Part shown: positions 2,041 to 12,214 of the stretch, in pieces
How the letters are laid out: each line of letters starts with the position of its first letter
Numbering within the stretch: the stretch's first letter is position 1
Source of the DNA: a virus
Length of the DNA stretch: 24,509 nt
IMG/VR virus record: IMGVR_UViG_3300042337_000059
Location: 1-24,509 of that record
Direction: 5' to 3' (one strand)
Notes under the pieces: generated by a model
Databases searched by the model: none
What the model saw: the letters and a program-made list of their open reading frames with translations, nothing else
What the model was told of the DNA's origin: nothing
Made by a program: the position numbers and the translations under genes

Positions 2041-2340
2041 ATGCCCGACTTTGGTGCCACGCCCGTCGAAGCCCAGCAGTACGGGAACCTGAACCTCTGG
2101 CAGTCGCTCATGCTGCTCCAGCGGTGGGCTCCACTCATTGGCTACGGCCAGCGGTTCATGGCTGAAGCTGACCCGTACAAGCGGTCGCTGATCGTGTCGG
2201 ACGCCGTCGAGTGGCTGGCGTCGCAGACGCAGGCCAAGGCTGACGACGAGCTCGTGACCAAGCTGGCCGCCGTGCTCAAGACGCCGGCCGGCGAGGATCT
2301 GGTGCGTTGGGTGATGGCGCAGGTGGAGGCCGTGCGGTGA
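2041..2340 (+). CDS. Hypothetical protein, 99 aa
   Basis: The ATG at 2041 has a good Shine-Dalgarno (AAGGAGA, about 9 nt upstream). The protein is predicted to be mostly helical. It begins MPDFGATPVEAQQYG, has an aromatic helix (LNLWQSLMLLQRWAPLIGYG) and ends in amphipathic helices. It has no obvious long membrane span. I do not recognise the family. The next gene starts at a GTG that overlaps its stop, and that product has two membrane segments, so this protein may belong to the same envelope or lysis cassette. Confidence 0.6.
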   Translation: MPDFGATPVEAQQYGNLNLWQSLMLLQRWAPLIGYGQRFMAEADPYKRSLIVSDAVEWLASQTQAKADDELVTKLAAVLKTPAGEDLVRWVMAQVEAVR

Positions 2341-2945
2341 CAAATGAGTCCCTCATTCGCACCGCCGCCGTGGTGGCGGCAGCTGCTTTTCTCGCTGCGC
2401 CGTACCGGCAGCAGCTGGCTGGCTGGCTCTCTCAGGCCGCCAAAGCCGCCCAAGCCCACGGACCACTTGTCGGCCGATTCGCCGCAGCGGTCCTGCTAAT
2501 CGCCGCAGCCTGGGGCAAGGTGCCGCTACCCCGGCTGCCGGAGCCGGCCGTGCCTGTTGTCACCGTTGATACGCCGAGCGACTCCATGCAAGCCACCGTC
2601 CAACCGATTTCCCAGGCACTGAAGGCCGCGCCGATTGGCGACAGGATGCTGTGGGCCAACCTCTGGAGCAAGGCGGCCACCGTCGTGGCCGGCGACGAGC
2701 TGGGCACCGAGGTTGTCATCACTGACACTCGTGCCCTGCGGCTGTTCACGACGCTGGCTCTCGACATCGGCTGGCGTCGAATCGGCGACCACAAGCCAGG
2801 GACGTACGCCGGCCTTCGCCAGGCGGTCGAGAAGGCCATGGGCGAAACACTGAGCCTGGACGCTCGGCCGGTGGACGCCGAGACGCGAGCCAAGGTAGTC
2901 GAGCTCTATCGGGCAATCGCATGGGCCGGCATGGCCAAGGAGTGA
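2337..2945 (+). CDS. Membrane protein with two N-terminal helices and a soluble domain
   Basis: I start this 202-aa protein at GTG 2337, which overlaps the previous stop as GTGA. The frame is open to 2307, but that adds only residues inside the neighbour. Two alanine-rich hydrophobic segments lie at about residues 8-22 and 45-60, separated by a short polar loop, followed by a Pro-rich linker (about 61-75) and a soluble helical domain of about 125 residues. The topology suggests a small two-pass inner-membrane protein with a cytoplasmic or periplasmic C-terminal domain. Its position just ahead of the papain-like gene makes it a candidate holin-related or envelope-modifying partner, but the family is not recognised and that role is inferred from context. 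Confidence 0.55.
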   Translation: MTNESLIRTAAVVAAAAFLAAPYRQQLAGWLSQAAKAAQAHGPLVGRFAAAVLLIAAAWGKVPLPRLPEPAVPVVTVDTPSDSMQATVQPISQALKAAPIGDRMLWANLWSKAATVVAGDELGTEVVITDTRALRLFTTLALDIGWRRIGDHKPGTYAGLRQAVEKAMGETLSLDARPVDAETRAKVVELYRAIAWAGMAKE

Positions 2946-2948
2946 GCG

Positions 2949-3947
2949 ATGCCCTGGGATGCCAATGCCGAGTACCTGAGCGGCCTTGCAGGCGTCTACG
3001 CCGACCCGGCTGCGTCTGAGCGTCTGACTCAGTACCTGCTCCAGCAGGGCCAGGCTCCTGACGGTGGCACGACATGCCGACGCTACGGGCTCGTGGGCAG
3101 CGGTGCCGGCAAGCTCTGGGCACCGTTTGAAATCATGCAGCGAGTTTTTCCAGACTGCCTGCCGGCGTCGGCACAGACCCGAGGCGACTGCGTCAGCCAC
3201 TCGACACGGAACGCCTGTCTGGGCACGCTCGCCTGCGAGATTGCCGCTGGCAAGCCAGACGAAATCACAGGCCTGGTTGAGGGCTCGCCAGACCTTGCCG
3301 ATGCCGCCCGTCGTGACGGCGTGCTGAGCACCGAGGCGATCTATTGGTTTCGCCAGCATGGCGGCGATGGCTGGAGTTGCGACCACGCCGCCGAGGTGGT
3401 GCTGAAGGAGTCGGGCCTGTGGGTGCGAAAGCGTTACGAAGCCCTCGGCATTGACCTGACGCAGTACGACGGCAAGGTAGCTGGCAAGTGGGGGGCGACG
3501 AGGCCACCCGCCAGCGTGCTCGAGATCGGCCGGCAGCACCTCGTACGCACGGCCACTCGGGCCCGGACGTTTGAGGAAGTCCGCGACTTGGTCGCCAACG
3601 GCTACTGCATCAGCAGCTGCGGCACCGAGGCGTTCCAGAACACCCGCGACGCCAACGGAGTCTCTAAGCGGTCAAGCGGCACATGGGCACACGCCATGGC
3701 CTACCTCGGCGTGGACGACCGAGACGAGACGCGAAAGGCCTACGGTCAGCCGCTCGTGCTGGTACAGAACTCGTGGGGCAAGTGGAACACGGGCGGGCGT
3801 GCAGTCATGGGCACGATGCTTGAGATCCCTCACGGCTCGTTCTGGGCCAAGTGGTCCGACATCAGCGGACGCTACTGCATCGCCTTCTCTGGCGTGAATG
3901 GGTGGCCAGCCCAGCAACTGCCCAACTGGACGGGAGACGTACTGTGA
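2949..3947 (+). CDS. Papain-like (C1A-type) cysteine peptidase, possible endolysin
   Basis: This 332-aa protein carries the four landmarks of the papain superfamily in order: Q76 and C81 in SAQTRGDCVSHS (oxyanion Gln and nucleophile Cys), H248 in GTWAHAMAYLGVDD, and N274 in VLVQNSWGKW, which includes the NSWG signature typical of C1A enzymes. The spacing from Cys to His (167 residues) and His to Asn (26) is close to that in classical papains. I see no signal peptide, so export would need a holin or other route. It sits between membrane protein genes and a possible lipoprotein, which suggests a lysis or cell-wall role, but it could also be a virion-maturation or ejected protease. Family recognition is from the motifs; the substrate is unknown. 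Confidence 0.75.
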   Translation: MPWDANAEYLSGLAGVYADPAASERLTQYLLQQGQAPDGGTTCRRYGLVGSGAGKLWAPFEIMQRVFPDCLPASAQTRGDCVSHSTRNACLGTLACEIAAGKPDEITGLVEGSPDLADAARRDGVLSTEAIYWFRQHGGDGWSCDHAAEVVLKESGLWVRKRYEALGIDLTQYDGKVAGKWGATRPPASVLEIGRQHLVRTATRARTFEEVRDLVANGYCISSCGTEAFQNTRDANGVSKRSSGTWAHAMAYLGVDDRDETRKAYGQPLVLVQNSWGKWNTGGRAVMGTMLEIPHGSFWAKWSDISGRYCIAFSGVNGWPAQQLPNWTGDVL

Positions 3948-4210
3948 GGCTCTTGGTCGCCATCTGCATTGTGACGGTTGGGTGCGTGATGACGCTGCCG
4001 GCCGATGACGCATCACTGACTGCGGACCTGGCTGCCGAGACGGCAAAGGCTGTGGTGCAGATGCGGAAAACGCCGGGGCCTGCTCCGAAGCCTGCTGGTG
4101 ACAAGTGCTCGACTTGCGGAACCAAAAACCCGCCGGGCGGTGGCTGGCTCGGTGACGGCACGGTCAAGGTTCCGTGCCCAGAGTGCAACAAGGCGAAGGC
4201 AGCGAAATGA
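3944..4210 (+). CDS. Possible lipoprotein with CxxC...CxxC zinc knuckle
   Basis: GTG 3944 overlaps the papain-like gene's stop (GTGA), giving an 88-aa protein. The N-terminus VRLLVAICIVTVGCV looks like a short lipoprotein signal with the acylated Cys at 14, although the -3 position is Thr rather than Leu and only one basic residue precedes the hydrophobic core. A helical stretch and Pro-rich linker lead to a C-terminal C55-x2-C58 ... C78-x2-C81 pair, expected to bind zinc. Small lipoproteins in lysis cassettes often serve as outer-membrane spanins, but a zinc knuckle is not usual there. A longer upstream start at 3851 was rejected because it lies entirely inside the previous gene. Confidence 0.55.
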   Translation: MRLLVAICIVTVGCVMTLPADDASLTADLAAETAKAVVQMRKTPGPAPKPAGDKCSTCGTKNPPGGGWLGDGTVKVPCPECNKAKAAK

Positions 4211-4527
4211 CCCGCGACCAACTCATTTCCGAAGTCTGGGCCGAGTTGCCGCCAAGGCGTTACCTGCTCGGCCGCAAGCGTGGCGAGCGGATCATTGCCC
4301 GCACGCTCAAGCGGTGGCCTGTGCCAGTGCTCTACCAGTGCGACGCCGAGCAGACGAACGTGGTGGGCGAGCACCTGGCCCGCACCATCGAACGCCAGGA
4401 GCGTGCCGAGTACGGCATGGGCTTCTTCGCGTCCATCATTCTGGCCGCCATCGTTTCCGAGATCGTGAAGATCCTGGTGCGTCGTTGGCTGGAGAACCGG
4501 GTCGAGATGCTGGAGGCACTCCAGTGA
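4207..4527 (+). CDS. Small membrane protein, 106 aa
   Basis: ATG 4207 overlaps the previous stop (ATGA). The first 70 residues are soluble, basic and charged, with an LGRKRGERIIARTLKRWP segment. One hydrophobic segment follows at about residues 71-91 (MGFFASIILAAIVSEIVKIL), then a short charged tail. It is a single-pass membrane protein with a large N-terminal domain. It overlaps the next small membrane protein gene (GTGA), so the pair is probably made together. The size and setting suit a holin, antiholin or inner-membrane spanin partner, but no family is recognised. Confidence 0.55.
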   Translation: MTRDQLISEVWAELPPRRYLLGRKRGERIIARTLKRWPVPVLYQCDAEQTNVVGEHLARTIERQERAEYGMGFFASIILAAIVSEIVKILVRRWLENRVEMLEALQ

Positions 4528-4757
4528 CTGACGCCGCCAAGGAGACGATTTACTCAGCGTTGAGAGATTACGGTTTCAGCGTAGTCGTGGCCTTGGCCGC
4601 CGGCTGGGTGCTGCGGAACGACGTGCTGATACCGCTGGTGGAAGAGCACCGGACGTTCGTGCGGTCGCTGAGCGAGACGCAGAGCGAGATCAGCAAGGCC
4701 GTCACCGAGCAGACCAAGCTGCTCTATGAGATGAAGCACATGAGGGACCAACCATGA
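4524..4757 (+). CDS. Holin-like small membrane protein with coiled-coil tail
   Basis: GTG 4524 overlaps the previous stop and gives 77 aa. A polar N-terminus (about 15 residues) is followed by one membrane span (YGFSVVVALAAGWVLRNDVL, about 16-35) and then a heptad-rich charged tail (SLSETQSEISKAVTEQTKLL) likely to form a coiled coil. This 'one TM plus coiled coil' shape is common among phage holins of the BhlA/UviB sort and also fits inner-membrane spanins. The gene ends by overlapping the LamG protein gene (ATGA). Holin is my preferred reading from size and shape only. Confidence 0.55.
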   Translation: MTDAAKETIYSALRDYGFSVVVALAAGWVLRNDVLIPLVEEHRTFVRSLSETQSEISKAVTEQTKLLYEMKHMRDQP

Positions 4758-5632
4758 GCATGTCGCCAAGACTCCTGCGGCCTCGAGCCACGGGGTTCAA
4801 TCCGAAGAGCATCAGCGGGCTTGTCGCTTGGTTTGACGCCGACGACACCTCTACGTTCACTCTGTCTGGCACCGCCGTATCAGAGTGGCGAGACAAAAGC
4901 GGAAACGGATATGCGGTATCGCAGCCCACGGGAAACAATCAGCCGGCCAGGACTGGAACACTTCGCGGCCGCGCGACGGTCGGCTTTGACGGCACTAACG
5001 ACGTTCTCTTCGCCGACAACACCGGACTCTCGGCCGCCTATAGCGGCGACAAGAGCATCACCGCCTTCGCTGTGGGCGAGATGCACACGTCCGCCGAGTA
5101 CGGGGTTAACTTGCTAGGCACATGGTTCTCGTTCGGATCTACGTCGTCAGGGGTGCCGTTCTGGTACATGCGATCCACTCCTGGCGCAGGCGGCGCACAG
5201 GTGCAACTGCGGAACGACGCCTCCTCCGCTACTGGCTCAATCACCAACGCGCAAGGCCCAGCAGGAGACGGAGCAGCAGCCGAATCGCTGCGCGACTTTT
5301 TCATCTGCTCGGCGACCAGCCCTTCGCAGGGCACGCAAGTCTGGCGCACGCACACCGTGATGTATTCGGAAGGCGACGGCATCGGTAACCGAAGCTCAGC
5401 CGGCGGCTTGTTCGGCAGCGTGACAACCGCTGCAGCAAGCAGGCCAGCAGGGAACACGACAGTGAACCGGTTCTCAATCGGGTGCCTCGGACGGAACACG
5501 TTTTCAGATTATTTTCCGGCTAGGCTCTCCGAAATCATCATCTACGGGAAGGTTCTGTCGGATGCAGAGCGCACGGCGGTCGTGCGATTCCTCGCCAAGA
5601 AATACACCAACGAGCCGATTCCGGTGCTTTGA
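4754..5632 (+). CDS. LamG/ConA-like lectin-fold protein
   Basis: This 292-aa protein begins at ATG 4754, overlapping the holin-like stop; a second ATG two codons later is also possible. Residues about 17-57 carry 'ISGLVAWFDADD...W-R-DKSGNGY' and about 65-85 'GRATVGFDGTNDVLF', the start of a LamG/ConA-like jelly-roll common in phage appendage and cell-surface proteins. The C-terminus 'RLSEIIIYGKVLSDAERTAV' (about 257-276) is the usual closing strand and helix of the same fold. Such domains bind carbohydrate or polymer, so it may be a receptor-binding, fibre or decoration protein. It sits away from the tail-tip genes, next to the putative lysis genes, so a role in cell-envelope attachment is also possible. 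No signal peptide is seen. Confidence 0.75.
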   Translation: MSMSPRLLRPRATGFNPKSISGLVAWFDADDTSTFTLSGTAVSEWRDKSGNGYAVSQPTGNNQPARTGTLRGRATVGFDGTNDVLFADNTGLSAAYSGDKSITAFAVGEMHTSAEYGVNLLGTWFSFGSTSSGVPFWYMRSTPGAGGAQVQLRNDASSATGSITNAQGPAGDGAAAESLRDFFICSATSPSQGTQVWRTHTVMYSEGDGIGNRSSAGGLFGSVTTAAASRPAGNTTVNRFSIGCLGRNTFSDYFPARLSEIIIYGKVLSDAERTAVVRFLAKKYTNEPIPVL

Positions 5633-6062: not shown

Positions 6063-6416
6063 ATGTCACAGGTCAAGATCAAGCGTCTGTTCCGGGTGGT
6101 GACCGCAACGGTTACCACGGCCACCAGCACCTGCACGACACTGCGCATGGAAGACATGGCCGGGGCGATCCTCGAGCTGCCGACGATCACGACGAACGCC
6201 GCCACCATCAACGTCTGGGGCAACGACACTGACAGCGGTTCGTTCTGCCAGCTGTACGGCAGCGACGGCTCAGTTGCGTCTATCACCCTCAGCCCGAGCA
6301 CGGTGAACCGCACGGCATACGCCCTGCCCGACGCTGCGTACGCTTTCCCGTACGTGAAGCTCGTGGCGGCAAACACCAACGCCACGGCCACGGTTTCCGT
6401 GGTCATGAAGTCCTAG
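6063..6416 (+). CDS. Small beta-rich protein, possible structural or decoration protein
   Basis: This 117-aa protein has a clear Shine-Dalgarno and ATG. It begins with a basic strand (MSQVKIKRLFRVVTATVTTA) and continues with alternating Thr/Val/Ala strands and short turns, ending in TVSVVMKS. The composition is that of a small beta-sandwich typical of virion decoration or tail-associated proteins. It resembles in style the 143-aa protein just after the capsid gene (strand-rich, Thr/Ser/Ala-rich), but I cannot show homology by eye. It lies directly upstream of the HNH-terminase block, and its stop overlaps the GTG of the HNH gene. Confidence 0.55.
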   Translation: MSQVKIKRLFRVVTATVTTATSTCTTLRMEDMAGAILELPTITTNAATINVWGNDTDSGSFCQLYGSDGSVASITLSPSTVNRTAYALPDAAYAFPYVKLVAANTNATATVSVVMKS

Positions 6417-6808
6417 TGCCTAATCGCATCCCCGCCCACAGGCCGCTGCGTCTGGTAGTCCGCCGTTCGCGCGACGACTCGGCCAGGCCAAACGCGGCAG
6501 CCCGTGGGTATTGTGACAAGGCACACCGAGCGTGGCGTAAGGCCGTGCTCACCCGTGACGCATGGACGTGCCGTGAGTGCGGGCGCGTGTGCAGCGACAA
6601 GCGAGAAGCCCAGGCGGACCATATCGTGCCGATACGCCAGGGTGGCGCGCGGTACGACCTGGCTAATGGACAGACGCTGTGCCTGGTGTGTCACGGGCGG
6701 AAGACCGCTTGCGAGGGTAGGGGGCGTCAAAAAGTGCAGGGCGAAATGGTCGCCAAACCGCTCGGCTTAGTCAAGCGCACTCACCCGCAGGAAATCGCAG
6801 AGGGGTAG
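6416..6808 (+). CDS. HNH endonuclease
   Basis: This 130-aa protein starts at GTG 6416, overlapping the previous stop by one base. It has a typical small HNH (His-Me finger) layout: C52-x2-C55 (TCRECGRVC), a D-H pair at 68-69 (QADHIVPIRQGG), an Asn at 84 (DLANGQTLC) and C89-x2-C92-H93 (LCLVCHGRKT). The D-H, N and H residues form the metal-binding beta-beta-alpha catalytic core and the Cys pairs bind structural zinc. HNH genes next to terminase are common in HK97-type phages, where they assist cos cleavage during packaging. The basic N-terminus (about 1-48) likely contacts DNA. Here it is followed by a second, larger HNH gene rather than directly by TerS. Confidence 0.88.
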   Translation: MPNRIPAHRPLRLVVRRSRDDSARPNAAARGYCDKAHRAWRKAVLTRDAWTCRECGRVCSDKREAQADHIVPIRQGGARYDLANGQTLCLVCHGRKTACEGRGRQKVQGEMVAKPLGLVKRTHPQEIAEG

Positions 6809-6847: not shown

Positions 6848-7954
6848 ATGTGTTACACGTGCCGTGATTGTCAGCAGCCCGTTGCCAAGAAGGGCTTGAG
6901 GGGGCCGACGCCACAGAGATGTGAGGTATGCAACAAACGCCGCACTGCGTTTCGGCAGCGGCAATGCCAGAAACGCTACTGCGAAAAGATTGGGCGTCCG
7001 TACCGGGGCCGAGACGAAGACGTTTCTCAGTGTTGCGATTGCGGGCACGCAACGCCACCTCGAGGTAATCGCGGGCCAATCAAGCTGCGATGCGAAAGTT
7101 GCAGTAAGCGCAAACAAAAAGAGGGGCGACGGCTTCGGCACGAACAATCAAAGGCTCGCTTCTCGCACCAGTGCGAACGCTGCAAGAAAACATTCTGCTG
7201 CTCGCGATCGCGTCAGCCGTACTGCTCGTACGAGTGCATGCACCTTGGCCAACGACGCCGCATTACGGTGAAGTGCGCGCGTAGTGGATGCGAAACATAT
7301 TTTGAGGCGCAGCCCAGCCAACTCCAAGGCGGGCGGCGATACTGCTGTCGAGAGTGCTCATACCCACCGAAGCATGTGTGCCAGAACCCTTCATGCGGCA
7401 AGCCGTTCAGGCCTAAGCATAAGCGCGCAAACTCGCCATGGGCCGGCAAAGGAAAATACTGCTGCAAGACCTGCTATCAGGACCATCGTTTCGGTGTGGA
7501 GCGGCCAGGCAAACGGCCAGGGCCTGCGTTGCTCAAGGCAGCGTCACGCAGCGCATTGAAAACATCGCTGCGGAAGAAATGTAGGCTGCTAAATGTTCCC
7601 TTCGATCCTGAGTGCACTCGGCATGCAGTCTGCGAGCGAGATAGTTGGGTGTGTCAGCTGTGTCACGTAAAATGCAACGTCGAGTACATCCTTGATCCAG
7701 TGACCAGAACCCCAAGCAGGCTAAATGCGGAGCACGATCACATAATTGCCCTTACGACCGCCGGCAGCCCAGGCAACGTATTCCCGAACTCTCAGTGTTT
7801 GTGTCGTGCGTGCAACAGCAGCAAGAGGACAAAGAGCAGAGGCCAGCACCGCCTAGACTTTGAAGGATCGGTAAAACGATGGGAAAACGAGGACCGCCGG
7901 CGACGCCAACGACACTCAAGATCTTGCGAGGAAACCCCGGCAAGCGCCGTCTAA
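6848..7954 (+). CDS. HNH endonuclease with array of five zinc modules
   Basis: This 368-aa protein begins at the ATG directly after the hairpin; no in-frame start lies between it and the upstream stop. Five Cys-pair modules precede the nuclease: C5/C8-C25/C28, C62-65 with C82/C85, C109/C112-C126/C130, C143/C148-C167/C170 and C178/C183-C206/C209. The first two are clear repeats (pattern C-x-D-C ... RG-x-RGP ... RCE-x-C-x-KR). The HNH core follows: C269-x2-C272, E295-H-D-H298, N314 and C319-x2-C322 (AEHDHIIALTTAGSPGN region). The protein is very basic, as for a DNA-binding homing-type nuclease. It looks lower in GC than its neighbours and its last 76 nt overlap the TerS gene, with a tail (RRRRQRHSRS) read from the TerS sequence. 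This suggests insertion of a mobile nuclease gene ahead of TerS. Confidence 0.82.
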   Translation: MCYTCRDCQQPVAKKGLRGPTPQRCEVCNKRRTAFRQRQCQKRYCEKIGRPYRGRDEDVSQCCDCGHATPPRGNRGPIKLRCESCSKRKQKEGRRLRHEQSKARFSHQCERCKKTFCCSRSRQPYCSYECMHLGQRRRITVKCARSGCETYFEAQPSQLQGGRRYCCRECSYPPKHVCQNPSCGKPFRPKHKRANSPWAGKGKYCCKTCYQDHRFGVERPGKRPGPALLKAASRSALKTSLRKKCRLLNVPFDPECTRHAVCERDSWVCQLCHVKCNVEYILDPVTRTPSRLNAEHDHIIALTTAGSPGNVFPNSQCLCRACNSSKRTKSRGQHRLDFEGSVKRWENEDRRRRQRHSRSCEETPASAV

Positions 7955-8358
7955 ACAAGGACGAGCCGCAGCCTCCGGTCGGTGGCGTGACTATGCCAGC
8001 GCACCTTGGCGAAATCGCCGCTGCCCGTTGGCGTGAACTGCTGCCGATGCTGCAAGCCGTCCGGGTGATGACGCAGGCCGACATTGAGGCGCTTGCTCGT
8101 TATTGCGACACGTACGAGTGGTGGCTTGCCACAAGGGTCAAACTCAAGAAGGACGGAGACACGTATCCGATCCTCAACGATGGCGGTGAAGTGAAATACA
8201 TCGCCCAGCGGCCAGAGGTGTCGATTGCTCACAAACTCGCCCAGCAGCTGCGACAGCTAGAGCAGGACTTCGGCCTAAACCCGTCGGCCAGGGCGTCACT
8301 GCATGTCGAAAAGCCGCAAACGTTCGACGACGACGAAGACAGAAAGATGTTCGGCTGA
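7879..8358 (+). CDS. terS: Terminase small subunit, P27 family
   Basis: This 159-aa protein starts MGKRGPPATPTTLKILRGNP and continues GKRRLNKDEPQP, the characteristic N-terminus of the P27 small terminase family (PF05119). TerS binds the packaging-initiation site on concatemeric phage DNA and recruits the large subunit. The middle is helical (ARWRELLPMLQAVRVMTQAD), and the C-terminus carries the 'LNPSARASLHV' motif also typical of the family. The start is overlapped by 76 nt by the upstream HNH gene, and the 3' end overlaps TerL by 56 nt, so the three are in one transcript. Confidence 0.9.
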   Translation: MGKRGPPATPTTLKILRGNPGKRRLNKDEPQPPVGGVTMPAHLGEIAAARWRELLPMLQAVRVMTQADIEALARYCDTYEWWLATRVKLKKDGDTYPILNDGGEVKYIAQRPEVSIAHKLAQQLRQLEQDFGLNPSARASLHVEKPQTFDDDEDRKMFG

Positions 8359-9877
8359 AAAGCCGTGCAATGACTGCGCGTCGTGCATCGCTGTGCGTTT
8401 CTTTGAGAAGCACCTGACACACGCCAAGGGCGAACTCGGCGGCAAGCCGTTCGTGCTTGAGCCGTGGCAGAAGCAGTACGTGTGGTCGCTCTTCCGCGAG
8501 CGTGACGGACGACGAGTGGTCCGCACGTCGCTGCTCGCACTTCCTCGCAAAAATGGCAAGAGCACGCTTGCGGCCGGGATCGCTCTAAGGGGGCTAATGG
8601 AGCCGGAGCCAGGAGCCGAGTGCTATTCCTGCGCTGCGTCTCGTGATCAAGCACGGCTTGTCTTTGATACCGCAAAGATCGCCGTTGAGCAGTCTCCGGT
8701 ACTGTCGAAGTACCTAAAGGTTTACCGCAACGCCATTGTGCGTGAGTCAACGCACTCCACGTACAAGGCACTTTCTGCTGAGGCAGGAATCCAGCACGGG
8801 CTTTCGCCGCATCTGGTGGTTTTTGACGAGTTGCACGTGAGCAACCGTGAGATGTGGGAGGTGATGATCAGCGGCCAGGGCGCACGCCGCAACCCGCTGA
8901 CGGTGGCGCTGACAACGGCCGGCTGGGATCGCCGAAGCGTGTGCTGGGAAGTTTGGAAGTACGCGGAGGCCGTCAGGGACGGCGTCGTTAAAGATGACAC
9001 TTTTCTCCCGCTGATCTTTAGTGCTCCGAGCGACGCCGACTGGAAGGACGAGTCAGTTTGGGCGAGTGCTAATCCAAACCTTGGCGTGTCGGTAAATCTG
9101 GACTTCCTCCGCAGCGAGTGTGCTCGAGCCGTTGAGATGCCGGCTTATGAGTCTGCGTTCCGGCAGCTGTACTTGAATCAGTGGGTGGAAGTGGAAACAA
9201 GGTGGCTGCGCATGGACCACTGGTCGCAAGGCAACGGGGCCTGCCCGGTTGATCTTTCCGGCCGGGAGTGCTGGGCAGGGCTCGATTTGGCCACGACGTT
9301 CGACACTACGGCACTTGTCCTGCTGTTCCCTATGGACGACGGCACGTTTTGGGTTGAGCCGCACTTTTGGATACCCAGCGAAAACGCTCATCAACGTGAA
9401 CGTCGAGACAAGGTGCCGTATGTGACGTGGAGCCGTCAGGGACATCTGCACACGACAGACGGAAACGTGACGGACTTCGAGCAACTGCGGCGAGACATCA
9501 ACGGCATCTGCGCAAAATACCGAGTTCGTGGCATAGGCCTTGATCCATGGAACGCTGCCCAGCTGGGCCAGCAACTGCAAGGGGATGGCCTTCCTATGCA
9601 AGACTTCCGGCAGGGCTATGCCTCGCTCTCAGCGCCCAGCAAGCAGCTGGAAAACTGGGTAGTCAGCGGCAAGCTTCTACACGGCGGCCACCCAGTGCTC
9701 GGCTGGCAGGCTGCCAACGTGGCCATTCAGAGCGATTCTGCGGCCGGAAACATTAAGCCAAGCAAGAACAGAAGCACAGAGCGAATAGACGGCATTGTGT
9801 CGCTTGTAATGGCTATTGGCCTCTGGCAGACGGCCACGGCACCAACGGAACAAAACTGGGACATCGTCACCATATGA
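8303..9877 (+). CDS. terL: Terminase large subunit, HK97-like
   Basis: This 524-aa packaging motor starts at ATG 8303. It has an adenine/LEPWQ motif at about 51-56, a Walker A-like loop ALPRKNGKST (79-88), Walker B LVVFDE (171-176) and a coupling motif ALTTAGW (202-208). The C-terminal RNase H-like nuclease has D328 (WAGLDLATTFD), D414 (GIGLDPWN) and D496 (TERIDGIVS), the expected metal-binding acids. The layout is the Terminase_1 / HK97 family, and the length is usual. It drives ATP-dependent DNA translocation into the prohead and cuts the concatemer. An N-terminal C16/C22/C25/C28 cluster, mostly encoded in or just after the TerS overlap, is not needed in most relatives, so a later start near 8391 (GTG) is possible. 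Confidence 0.95.
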   Translation: MSKSRKRSTTTKTERCSAEKPCNDCASCIAVRFFEKHLTHAKGELGGKPFVLEPWQKQYVWSLFRERDGRRVVRTSLLALPRKNGKSTLAAGIALRGLMEPEPGAECYSCAASRDQARLVFDTAKIAVEQSPVLSKYLKVYRNAIVRESTHSTYKALSAEAGIQHGLSPHLVVFDELHVSNREMWEVMISGQGARRNPLTVALTTAGWDRRSVCWEVWKYAEAVRDGVVKDDTFLPLIFSAPSDADWKDESVWASANPNLGVSVNLDFLRSECARAVEMPAYESAFRQLYLNQWVEVETRWLRMDHWSQGNGACPVDLSGRECWAGLDLATTFDTTALVLLFPMDDGTFWVEPHFWIPSENAHQRERRDKVPYVTWSRQGHLHTTDGNVTDFEQLRRDINGICAKYRVRGIGLDPWNAAQLGQQLQGDGLPMQDFRQGYASLSAPSKQLENWVVSGKLLHGGHPVLGWQAANVAIQSDSAAGNIKPSKNRSTERIDGIVSLVMAIGLWQTATAPTEQNWDIVTI

Positions 9878-11241
9878 TCGCTCACGTTGAGTCTGCCGAA
9901 GAGAAGGGTTACCGCATCATCGACTTGCGGGGCTCGTACGGGGACAGCTGGAGCGAGTCGCCGGCCCGTGGCCCGGCTGGTGTGCGAATCACGCCCGAGA
10001 CGGCCCTGCAGTGCTCGGCGGTGCTGGCCTGCGTGCGGCTGATCGCTGAGAACCTTGCCACGGTGCCGCTGCACCTGTACCGGCGGCTGTCTGAGGGCGG
10101 CAAAGATCGCGCCCGTGATCTGCCGCTGTACCGCATCCTGAACCAGCAGCCCAACGGCTGGCAGACGAGCTTTGAGTTCCGGGAGATGCTCACGGCTCAC
10201 TGCCTACTCTACGGCAACGCCTACGCCGAGGTCCGCAGCGGTGCCGCCGGTGCTGTCTCTGAGTTGTGGCCACTGCACCCGAGCCGGATGAAGGTTGAGC
10301 AGCTGGAAGACGGCAGCCTGCGGTACTGCTACCGGGAGCAGCACGGAAACGAGACGCACTACCGGCAAGACCAGATCTTTCATCTGCGGTGGCTGAGCAA
10401 CGACGGCGTGATGGGCATGCTGCCGATCACGCTGGCTCGTGATGCCATCGGCCTGGCCCAGGCCTTGGAGGCTCACGGCGGTGCCTACTTCGGCAACGCC
10501 TGCCGGCTGTCGGGGCTCATGGAGTCCGACAACCCGATCACAGTGGAGACGGCCGAGCGGCTGCGTGAGCAGTTTGAGCGGTTGCACCGTGGGGCCGACC
10601 GTGCGTTCCGCACCGCCGTTCTACCGCAGGGCGTGAAGTGGAAGGACGTGCAGGGCACGAACGAGTCGAGCCAGTTCTTGGAGTCTCGGTCGTATCAAGT
10701 GGTCGAGATCTGCCGGGCCTACCGCGTCGATCCGTCCTACGTGCAAGACAAGACCAAGGTGGGATACGCCAGCCAGGAGCAGGCGGCCATCGACTTGGTT
10801 CAGCAGACTCTGCTGCCGTGGTTCCGTCGCTGGGAGTCCGCCATCACCCGTGATCTCGTCGTGCGGGATGACGTGTACTTCGCCGAGTTCGACACCCGAG
10901 GCCTGCTGCGTGGCGATTTGGCCGCCCAGGCCAACTGGCTGCGGGAGATGATCGGCCTCGGCATCTACTCGGTGAACGAGGCCCGCGAGGTTCTCAACAT
11001 GAACCCGATCGGCCCCGAGGGCGACCAGCGGTACATGCAGCTGAACATGACGACGATGCAGGGCATTGCCCTGGACGCTGCCGGCAACGCTGGCACGCCA
11101 GTGCCGGCCGCTGACACGTCGCCGCAGTCCTACACAGACAAGCTGCTGGCCGGGCCGCCGCCAGAGAACGACACGCCCGTGAGGCCCGCCGGGCCTGCAC
11201 CTCGAGCCCGCCGCAACACTCGCAAGAAGCCCAATGGCTAA
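9874..11241 (+). CDS. Portal protein, HK97 family
   Basis: This 455-aa protein overlaps the TerL stop (ATGA). The N-terminal third contains 'ALQCSAVLACVRLIAENLATVPLHLYRR' (in parts), then 'LLYGNAYAEV' and 'ELWPLHPSRMKVEQ', followed by 'IFHLRW', all hallmarks of the Phage_portal family PF04860. The middle 'RVDPSYVQDKTKVGYASQEQ' and 'FVLRTLLPWFRRWE'-type region (here LVQQTLLPWFRRWE) are also standard. Twelve copies would form the ring at the head vertex through which DNA enters and leaves. The last 50 residues are Pro/Arg-rich and probably disordered. The stop overlaps the prohead protease start by 8 nt. Confidence 0.95.
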   Translation: MIAHVESAEEKGYRIIDLRGSYGDSWSESPARGPAGVRITPETALQCSAVLACVRLIAENLATVPLHLYRRLSEGGKDRARDLPLYRILNQQPNGWQTSFEFREMLTAHCLLYGNAYAEVRSGAAGAVSELWPLHPSRMKVEQLEDGSLRYCYREQHGNETHYRQDQIFHLRWLSNDGVMGMLPITLARDAIGLAQALEAHGGAYFGNACRLSGLMESDNPITVETAERLREQFERLHRGADRAFRTAVLPQGVKWKDVQGTNESSQFLESRSYQVVEICRAYRVDPSYVQDKTKVGYASQEQAAIDLVQQTLLPWFRRWESAITRDLVVRDDVYFAEFDTRGLLRGDLAAQANWLREMIGLGIYSVNEAREVLNMNPIGPEGDQRYMQLNMTTMQGIALDAAGNAGTPVPAADTSPQSYTDKLLAGPPPENDTPVRPAGPAPRARRNTRKKPNG

Positions 11242-12214
11242 GTACGACAACATCGACTTCACGCCGCCCATGGGCGTGAGAAAGGAGGCGGCCAAGGGGC
11301 TGGAGTGGCGTAACAAGTTCAACCGTGGAGGCACCGCTGTTGGCGTTGCCCGTGCGCGGGACTTGTCGAACGGCACGAACATCAGCCCCGACACCGCACG
11401 CCGCATGGCGTCGTACTTCGCTCGCCACCAAGTGGACAAAAATGGGCATGGCTTCCAGCCTGGCGAAGACGGCTTCCCGAGTGCTGGGCGTATAGCGTGG
11501 GCGCTGTGGGGCGGCGACCCCGGACAAGCATGGGCAAACAAACTCACCAGGCAGATGGATGCCGCTGATAACGAGGGCCGAACAATGACCACTGAGATGG
11601 AACGCCGATCAATCCCGCTGCCCCTTAGCATCGAAACCCGTGCCGACGGAAAGTCGGTGATTCGTGGCATGGCGGCCCGCTACCGGGTTCGCTCTGTGGA
11701 TCTCGGTGGCTTTACCGAAGAGATCATGCCTGGGGCGTTTGATGGCGTGATGAAGCGAGAAGGCCGCAACGTCGTCGGGCTCTTCAACCATGACAGCAAC
11801 ATCGTGCTTGGCACCGAGCGTGCCCGTACGCTGCGGCTGTCGGCCATGGAGGACGGGCTGGGCTACGAGCTCGACCCGCCGGCCACCAGAGCGGACATCG
11901 TTGAACTCATCCAGCGCGGCGACGTGTGGGGCTCTTCGTTTGCGTTCACGATTGCCCGAGACGGCGACGAGTGGACGACCGACGACGACGGCCAGCACCT
12001 GCGATACGTTCGCCAGATCGACGGACTGTACGACGTTGGCCCCGTGCTCACGCCGGCCTACGGCGACACGAGCGTGACGGTGGCCCGCCGTTCGTTGGAG
12101 CGGCACCTACAATCGCACCGACCGGCGCTGAAGCTGCCGGCTCTTCGACGGGACGCGAAGACCGAGACGGCGATTCGTCGGTTTCTGAGGCAGCATGGCC
12201 GTAAAGTCCGGTGA
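11234..12214 (+). CDS. Prohead protease (S78/U35-like) with extra N-terminal module
   Basis: This 326-aa protein has two parts. Residues about 8-104 form a module (FTPPMGVRKEAAKG ... GGTAVGVARARDLSNG ... MASYFARH ... PSAGRIAWALWGGDPG) that I have seen in other phage proteins but cannot name. Residues about 120-300 are an HK97-type prohead protease: GMAARYRVRS, EEIMPGAFD, H186 in LFNHDSNIVLGT and S234/S235 in VWGSSFAFTI as likely catalytic His and Ser. The protease cleaves the capsid delta domain and itself during maturation. An ATG at 11585 (residue 118) with GAGGG 7 nt upstream could give the protease alone, so two forms are possible. The 3' end overlaps the small zinc-ribbon gene by 20 nt. 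Confidence 0.88.
   Translation: MAKYDNIDFTPPMGVRKEAAKGLEWRNKFNRGGTAVGVARARDLSNGTNISPDTARRMASYFARHQVDKNGHGFQPGEDGFPSAGRIAWALWGGDPGQAWANKLTRQMDAADNEGRTMTTEMERRSIPLPLSIETRADGKSVIRGMAARYRVRSVDLGGFTEEIMPGAFDGVMKREGRNVVGLFNHDSNIVLGTERARTLRLSAMEDGLGYELDPPATRADIVELIQRGDVWGSSFAFTIARDGDEWTTDDDGQHLRYVRQIDGLYDVGPVLTPAYGDTSVTVARRSLERHLQSHRPALKLPALRRDAKTETAIRRFLRQHGRKVR

Follow-up and report, generated by a model that had tools for sequence, protein, structure and literature searches.

A divergent C1A-type peptidase in a conserved phage operon with relatives in planctomycete prophages: a possible envelope-breaking cassette

Introduction

The gene at positions 2949–3947 of a 24.5 kb virus record (the window, meaning the whole stretch of DNA analyzed) raises the question of what a papain-like C1A cysteine peptidase does for a phage. 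The window carries an HK97-type head module with genes for the terminase large subunit, portal, head maturation protease, and major capsid protein, after which come connectors and a tape-measure candidate. A sequence-only reading of this DNA had proposed that the enzyme is a non-standard lysin directed at the host wall or envelope or, alternatively, that it processes a virion protein, and had guessed at a planctomycete host.

There is disagreement over what the planctomycete wall is made of. According to gene-loss data cited in PMC8567305, most Planctomycetales lack genes for peptidoglycan synthesis, whereas lysozyme-sensitive peptidoglycan sacculi were found in several planctomycetes (PMC4432640). 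Cysteine-rich YTV proteins are present in wall preparations of Planctomycetales, which are reported to be the only carriers of these proteins (PMC8567305).

Results

The papain ORF (2949–3947, plus strand) starts with an ATG preceded by AGGAG and has Q at position 76, C at 81, H at 248, and N at 274, the last opening an NSWG motif, exactly as the sequence-only reading claimed. The set is conserved among 85 related loci, many of them redundant, with identities of 36–95%. Q76, G79, D80, C81, W142, C144, C224, W246, and H248 are invariant across the 85 members, and the active-site set is therefore not a chance occurrence, because Q76, C81, and H248 are among these positions. Position 274 is N in 78/85 members. 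When divergent planctomycete copies (22%–26% identity) were added to the alignment, Q76, G79, C81, W246, H248, and S275 were still invariant. Profile alignment with what we take to be the papain sequence, with its catalytic set Q19/C25/H159/N175, pairs Q76 with Q19, C81 with C25, H248 with H159, and N274 with N175 (pairwise P 3e-6); the Q-to-C spacing is 5 residues in the window protein versus 6 in papain. The remaining seven members carry Q at catalytic position 274, and in-frame stops occur in four of the genome copies (G637, G545, G624, and G466), which suggests decay or relaxed use in some lineages.

Single-sequence searches with the window protein against Pfam, PHROG, PDB, and INPHARED (tblastn) returned nothing relevant. 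No CHAP or NLPC_P60 profile was matched in Pfam at E up to 1, and neither Pfam nor PHROG gave a known endolysin catalytic or wall-binding profile. PF00112 was not matched above the cut-off by the window protein; Pfam searches with 17 or 18 family members produced sub-threshold matches only (SPOR, E 0.015; PF00112, best E 0.071, in 2/18 members). No signal or membrane anchor was detected in the window papain or in the first family set (0/85).

Structure prediction gave a much clearer assignment. The AlphaFold model, built from 17 sequences, has a pLDDT of 86 and a pTM of 0.90; in it, a helix spanning 81–100 begins at C81, a strand (238–256) holds H248, and another strand (269–274) ends at N274, so that the predicted order of secondary structure around these three residues is the papain layout. 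Foldseek placed xylellain at the top (E 3e-11), with procathepsins next, and VIA aligned xylellain over 229 residues (Z 20.4), many cathepsins (Z 16–19), and the C. difficile surface-layer protease Cwp84 (Z 16.7); the top structural matches listed by both programs are all C1A-type enzymes. The structure prediction and fold search that the sequence-only reading had called for thus gave C1A as the best fit, and the four residues map to those of papain by alignment and by the secondary structure of the model. The VIA alignment to C1A zymogens begins near residue 6, and hence the N-terminal segment of about 50 residues resembles a pro-region. The profile that was aligned with papain, built from an 18-member alignment that includes planctomycete copies, also matches C1-family PDB chains (best E 2.8e-4), whereas PF00112 does not match, which indicates a divergent branch of C1A. 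Taken together, the model, the fold searches, and the alignment with papain support a papain fold of the C1A type in which the active site is complete, and identification of the window protein as a divergent C1A peptidase is well supported in fold and active site. The protein is probably proteolytic.

The papain gene lies within a tightly packed block at 2041–4757, bounded by a region with a putative glycosyltransferase and small genes on one side and a gene for a LamG-like virion protein on the other. The relevant features of the window are as follows.

2041–2340, plus strand: 99-aa protein, conserved in the cassette of siphovirus-like relatives
2307–2945, plus strand: upstream partner (family c11), N-terminal hydrophobic segments and a C-terminal all-helical domain
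2949–3947, plus strand: papain-like C1A cysteine peptidase, 332 aa, Q76/C81/H248/N274
3944–4210, plus strand: lipoprotein-like partner of 88 aa (family c6), whose GTG start overlaps the stop codon of the papain gene
4207–4527, plus strand: small protein with one C-terminal transmembrane segment (...SEIVKILVRRWLENR)
4524–4757, plus strand: small protein with a weakly scoring transmembrane segment, then a probable coiled coil
4754–5632, plus strand: LamG/concanavalin-like virion protein adjoining the cassette (PHROG 10356, E 6.5e-18)
8303–9877, plus strand: terminase large subunit; the head module starts about 4 kb downstream of the cassette
11234–12214, plus strand: head maturation protease

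The expected membrane and lipoprotein flanks are therefore present: a hydrophobic segment is encoded upstream, at 2307–2945, and the lipoprotein-like product of 3944–4210 is followed by two small predicted membrane proteins. No clear holin was identified in the window. The 4524–4757 product is holin-like in layout only and matched no profile, and look-alikes of the 4207–4527 protein are located downstream in the prophage-type loci L227/L228. Ahead of the block, the gene at 221–1423 has weak similarity to glycosyltransferase family 2 (PF13704, E 0.025), and the cluster to which it belongs is common to 15 related loci, where it precedes the cassette. Immediately before the terminase genes are tandem HNH-endonuclease-type genes (6416–6808 and 6848–7954), the second of which encodes an unusually cysteine-rich product with repeated CxxC motifs.

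The partners of the papain recur across the family. The c11 protein, whose start codon in the window is uncertain (TTG 2307, GTG 2337, or GTG 2370), is exported or membrane anchored with a helical C-terminal domain; its gene precedes the papain gene in 78/85 loci, and a profile search also picked it up in several planctomycete loci (best E 2.8e-8); the homologs there may carry a PKD-like domain, judging from a sub-threshold match. We also considered c11 as a known C1 inhibitor fold, but a fold search with the c11 model gave no significant PDB match and the idea is unsupported. In many of the phages of about 200 kb described below, the c11 and papain genes are separated by one for an Ig-like membrane protein (c25). 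The window c6 protein has a signal/lipobox-like start followed by CxxC...CxxC, and the exported Cys-pair proteins encoded downstream of the papain elsewhere often have the form CxxCxGxG...CxxC, sometimes with a C-terminal C-x-x-G-x-C. In some prophages, c6 is replaced by exported thioredoxin-fold proteins (PF00085, E 3.7e-10; PF13899, E 1.3e-7). An automatic screen with a hydrophobicity threshold found an exported CxxC partner in at least 47/85 loci, a count from which many versions in the phages of about 200 kb are missing because their weaker signal sequences fell below the threshold. These results bear out an envelope-related neighborhood of exported and membrane partners around the papain.

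C-termini resembling C-x-x-G-x-C were seen on exported proteins encoded downstream of planctomycete papains at L224:2215–2619, L230:7762–8166, L258:8835–9110, L269:8898–9320, and L225:6433–7164, in the variants CTRNGC, CDGRQC, CVNGQC, CPNGTC, and CEGGQC; a thiol or metal function is possible for this motif.

A first scan found 26 viral loci that encode papain relatives, and a second scan found 106 relatives, of which 80 were kept. They form two main groups: siphovirus-like contigs resembling the window, and many phages with contigs of up to 192–205 kb. Strict patterns applied to 84,980 prokaryote genomes recovered one close relative, on a Planctomycetaceae MAG contig (L217/L218), and this single scan is the basis for the frequency outside the planctomycete phylum. 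The MAG contig is phage-like by gene content but was not matched by terminase or portal profiles, and it is consequently weak evidence for a host. A more sensitive profile detected homologs in 106/397 genomes from a single planctomycete class, and 95 of these matches were strong. When 382 genomes were drawn from across the phylum, the strong matches besides the G001 MAG numbered 11, every one in a genome that had also been drawn for that class; the other matches were weak and partial.

Many of the planctomycete copies are in prophages. At least 22 of the 32 planctomycete loci examined have phage structural genes within about 10 kb. Clusters of terminase, portal, or protease-like genes account for 19 of these loci, and terminase or tape-measure genes for a further three; cluster identities were checked against PHROGs on representatives. 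The terminase typically starts 2.3–3.6 kb past the papain start, and in prophage L230 the cassette is placed between the head and tail genes. Neighbors are mainly host-like at L226, L229, L257, L260, L265, and L269, and four other loci are ambiguous; these operons may be remnants or domesticated copies. An N-terminal hydrophobic anchor is present on 5/12 papain copies from the first draw of planctomycete genomes, in contrast to its complete absence from the first family set. The guess of a planctomycete link is upheld by these prophage relatives; that the window phage itself infects a planctomycete is unproven.

The YTV wall repeat was found in 293/297 genomes of the papain-bearing class versus 0/14 control genomes, and the YTV content of this class fits that of Planctomycetales. 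As a discriminator within the class, the repeat proved useless because nearly every genome carries it. The murG gene, scored as present below E 1e-25, was missing from 74/95 strong papain carriers versus 171/302 other genomes (Fisher P 1.7e-4, which ignores phylogeny and genome incompleteness) and was present in 21 strong papain-positive genomes.

Additional proteases accompany the papain in some relatives. In the phages of about 200 kb, a matrixin with a peptidoglycan-binding domain (PF00413, PF01471) is encoded about 1.3 kb upstream of the papain; it was found in 12/13 large-phage records tested and is confined to large phages. At L013:3894–4721 and in 11 other records, this M10 metalloprotease has its peptidoglycan-binding domain at the N terminus. 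The similarity of the matrixin to a PHROG endolysin runs through that binding domain, and the protein is a candidate for an unusual protease-type lysin. Just before it, 2.5 kb from the papain, lies a gene whose product weakly resembles Phage_holin_10. Candidates for holin- or spanin-like company in the window are the small membrane proteins and lipoprotein adjoining the papain; weak holin similarity was seen only in the phages of about 200 kb. In L031 and G401, which have this locus in common and represent one siphovirus lineage, a signal-bearing trypsin-like protease is encoded about 4 kb upstream of the papain; the gene, at L031:1085–1858 and again at L232:11580–12353, specifies a serine protease of the trypsin family (AAH..., GDSGG) that is apparently exported. 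About 2.5 kb downstream of the papain, the phages of about 200 kb also encode an RNA polymerase beta-subunit-like protein (L013:9467–12970; Rpb2 domain 6, E 1.3e-50).

Amidase_2, Peptidase_M15_3, SLT, and Phage_lysozyme had no match in 26 related records, and the lack of peptidoglycan hydrolases is only suggestive because many of these records are fragments and the search covered four lysin families. In the largest siphovirus-like relative (50 kb), a Pfam scan showed no lysin among the 25 families listed of 53.

Discussion

Sequence and model support the C1A fold, the conservation of the active site and of the operon, the presence of exported partners, and the location in planctomycete prophages. 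Our preferred reading, to which we give slightly less than an even chance, is that the window protein is a phage C1A protease active outside the inner membrane, in an envelope-breaking and most likely lysis cassette of planctomycete phages. The window's own papain, which lacks a signal, would have to reach an extracytoplasmic site; its substrate would be a wall protein, its Cys-pair partner would open disulfides, and the cassette would act at the time of lysis. Points against this reading are the signal- and anchor-free window protein, the peptidoglycan seen in several planctomycetes, the strong carriers that retain murG, and the operons set among host-like genes. The broader proposal that planctomycete phages lyse their hosts by proteolysis of a disulfide-rich protein wall, with the cassette replacing a peptidoglycan-cutting endolysin, is rather doubtful. 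The cassette meant here comprises the C1A protease, the exported thiol or Cys-pair protein, the helical exported partner, and the small membrane proteins, a combination that recurs in diverse planctomycete phages. What has stood of the original lysin proposal is its fold, envelope-related neighborhood, and planctomycete link; lysis itself keeps the strength given here.

Under the preferred reading, the enzyme would be made with an N-terminal pro-like segment in the window lineage or with a membrane anchor in some prophages, and would reach the periplasm through its own anchor or through a holin-like protein encoded alongside it. Its exported partner, a Cys-pair protein or a thioredoxin, would hold thiols reduced or open disulfides, and the papain would cut cysteine-rich wall or envelope proteins to allow virion exit. 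The papain would often be assisted by a second protease, the matrixin in the phages of about 200 kb or the trypsin-like enzyme in one siphovirus lineage.

An unlikely but substantial alternative is that the protease is virion associated and acts on entry, being packaged or injected to digest surface or periplasmic protein as the genome enters. The viral family has no signal peptide or anchor in any of its 85 members, the window cassette adjoins the LamG virion protein, the L230 cassette sits between head and tail genes, and the papain of the phages of about 200 kb is near RNA-polymerase-beta-like genes. RNA polymerases of the beta-like type are virion proteins in some large phages. Against this, the flanking genes of the operon encode exported or membrane proteins and no recognizable virion proteins, thioredoxins occur among the partners, and the membrane anchors on several prophage copies would be odd for a packaged protein. 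The frequency of the operon in genomes (106/397) and its location among host genes at L257, L260, L265, and L269, with no phage genes in view, would fit lysogenic conversion or superinfection exclusion, in which a prophage-expressed or host-domesticated operon trims host surface proteins. Exclusion systems commonly include exported lipoproteins. We nonetheless consider this role improbable, because the same module is found on phage contigs of about 200 kb and on siphovirus-like contigs and is often closely ahead of the terminase, a late-gene position.

Processing of a virion protein, the alternative offered by the sequence-only reading, is weakened by the separate gene at 11234–12214, which means that the window phage already has a dedicated capsid protease. 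An auxiliary cytoplasmic protease that matures a structural protein would suit the signal-less window family and the adjoining structural genes, but the anchors and exported partners argue against the cytoplasm, and with the dedicated head maturation protease they make this explanation very improbable. There is equally little to recommend a catalytically inert structural or binding protein that retains the papain fold: seven of the 85 members do have Q at position 274, yet Q, C, and H are invariant even among very divergent copies.

The preferred reading of an envelope-breaking cassette bears on how phages leave bacteria with little or no conventional peptidoglycan synthesis. The protease and thiol-protein operon, carried by about one in four of the sampled genomes of one class, often within prophages, is a testable candidate for proteolytic lysis and a possible tool for probing the planctomycete wall, and it adds a divergent C1A branch that is invisible to single-sequence profile searches. 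A literature search returned no account of phage C1A lysins, of planctomycete phage lysis, or of this operon in a planctomycete-phage setting. The kind of enzyme is therefore known and its branch divergent, and the operon with its phage and planctomycete setting was not found described.

The closest known enzymes are the bacterial C1A peptidases xylellain (PDB: 3ois) and Cwp84 (PDB: 4ci7), which are alike in fold, in the order and identity of the active-site residues, and in the pro-like N-terminal segment; Cwp84 is also tied to a protein surface layer. The window papain differs from both in its sequence (13%–22% identity), its shorter Q-to-C spacing, its lack of a Pfam match, and its phage operon with Cys-pair and membrane partners. 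The same fold occurs in phages among the C1-type peptidases of uncultured Caudovirales in BFVD (e.g., A0A6J5TCZ4; E 1.6e-10 and weaker), so the earlier view of C1A enzymes as unusual in phages holds in the sense of uncommon but not of unprecedented. Identity to these proteins is 12%–18%, and the window protein lacks domains such as those for which A0A6J5MXS7 is annotated as peptidoglycan-binding-like and A0A8S5PQA2 as an N-acetylmuramidase.

CHAP, NlpC/P60, and Amidase_5 endolysins belong to the broad papain-like superfamily and are phage enzymes that act on the envelope, as proposed for the window protein, but they cut peptidoglycan, whereas the window protein carries the NSWG motif of C1 enzymes and matched neither a CHAP nor an NlpC profile. 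Signal-anchor (SAR-like) lysis enzymes have an N-terminal anchor of the kind that is missing from the window papain and its viral relatives and present in some planctomycete copies. Holin/endolysin/spanin cassettes resemble the window block in that a lipoprotein, a degradative enzyme, and small membrane proteins are encoded together near the terminase; they differ in that the enzyme here is a predicted protease and in that they contain nothing equivalent to the exported Cys-pair or thioredoxin protein. A proteolytic lysis system of this composition, if proven, would be a new kind.
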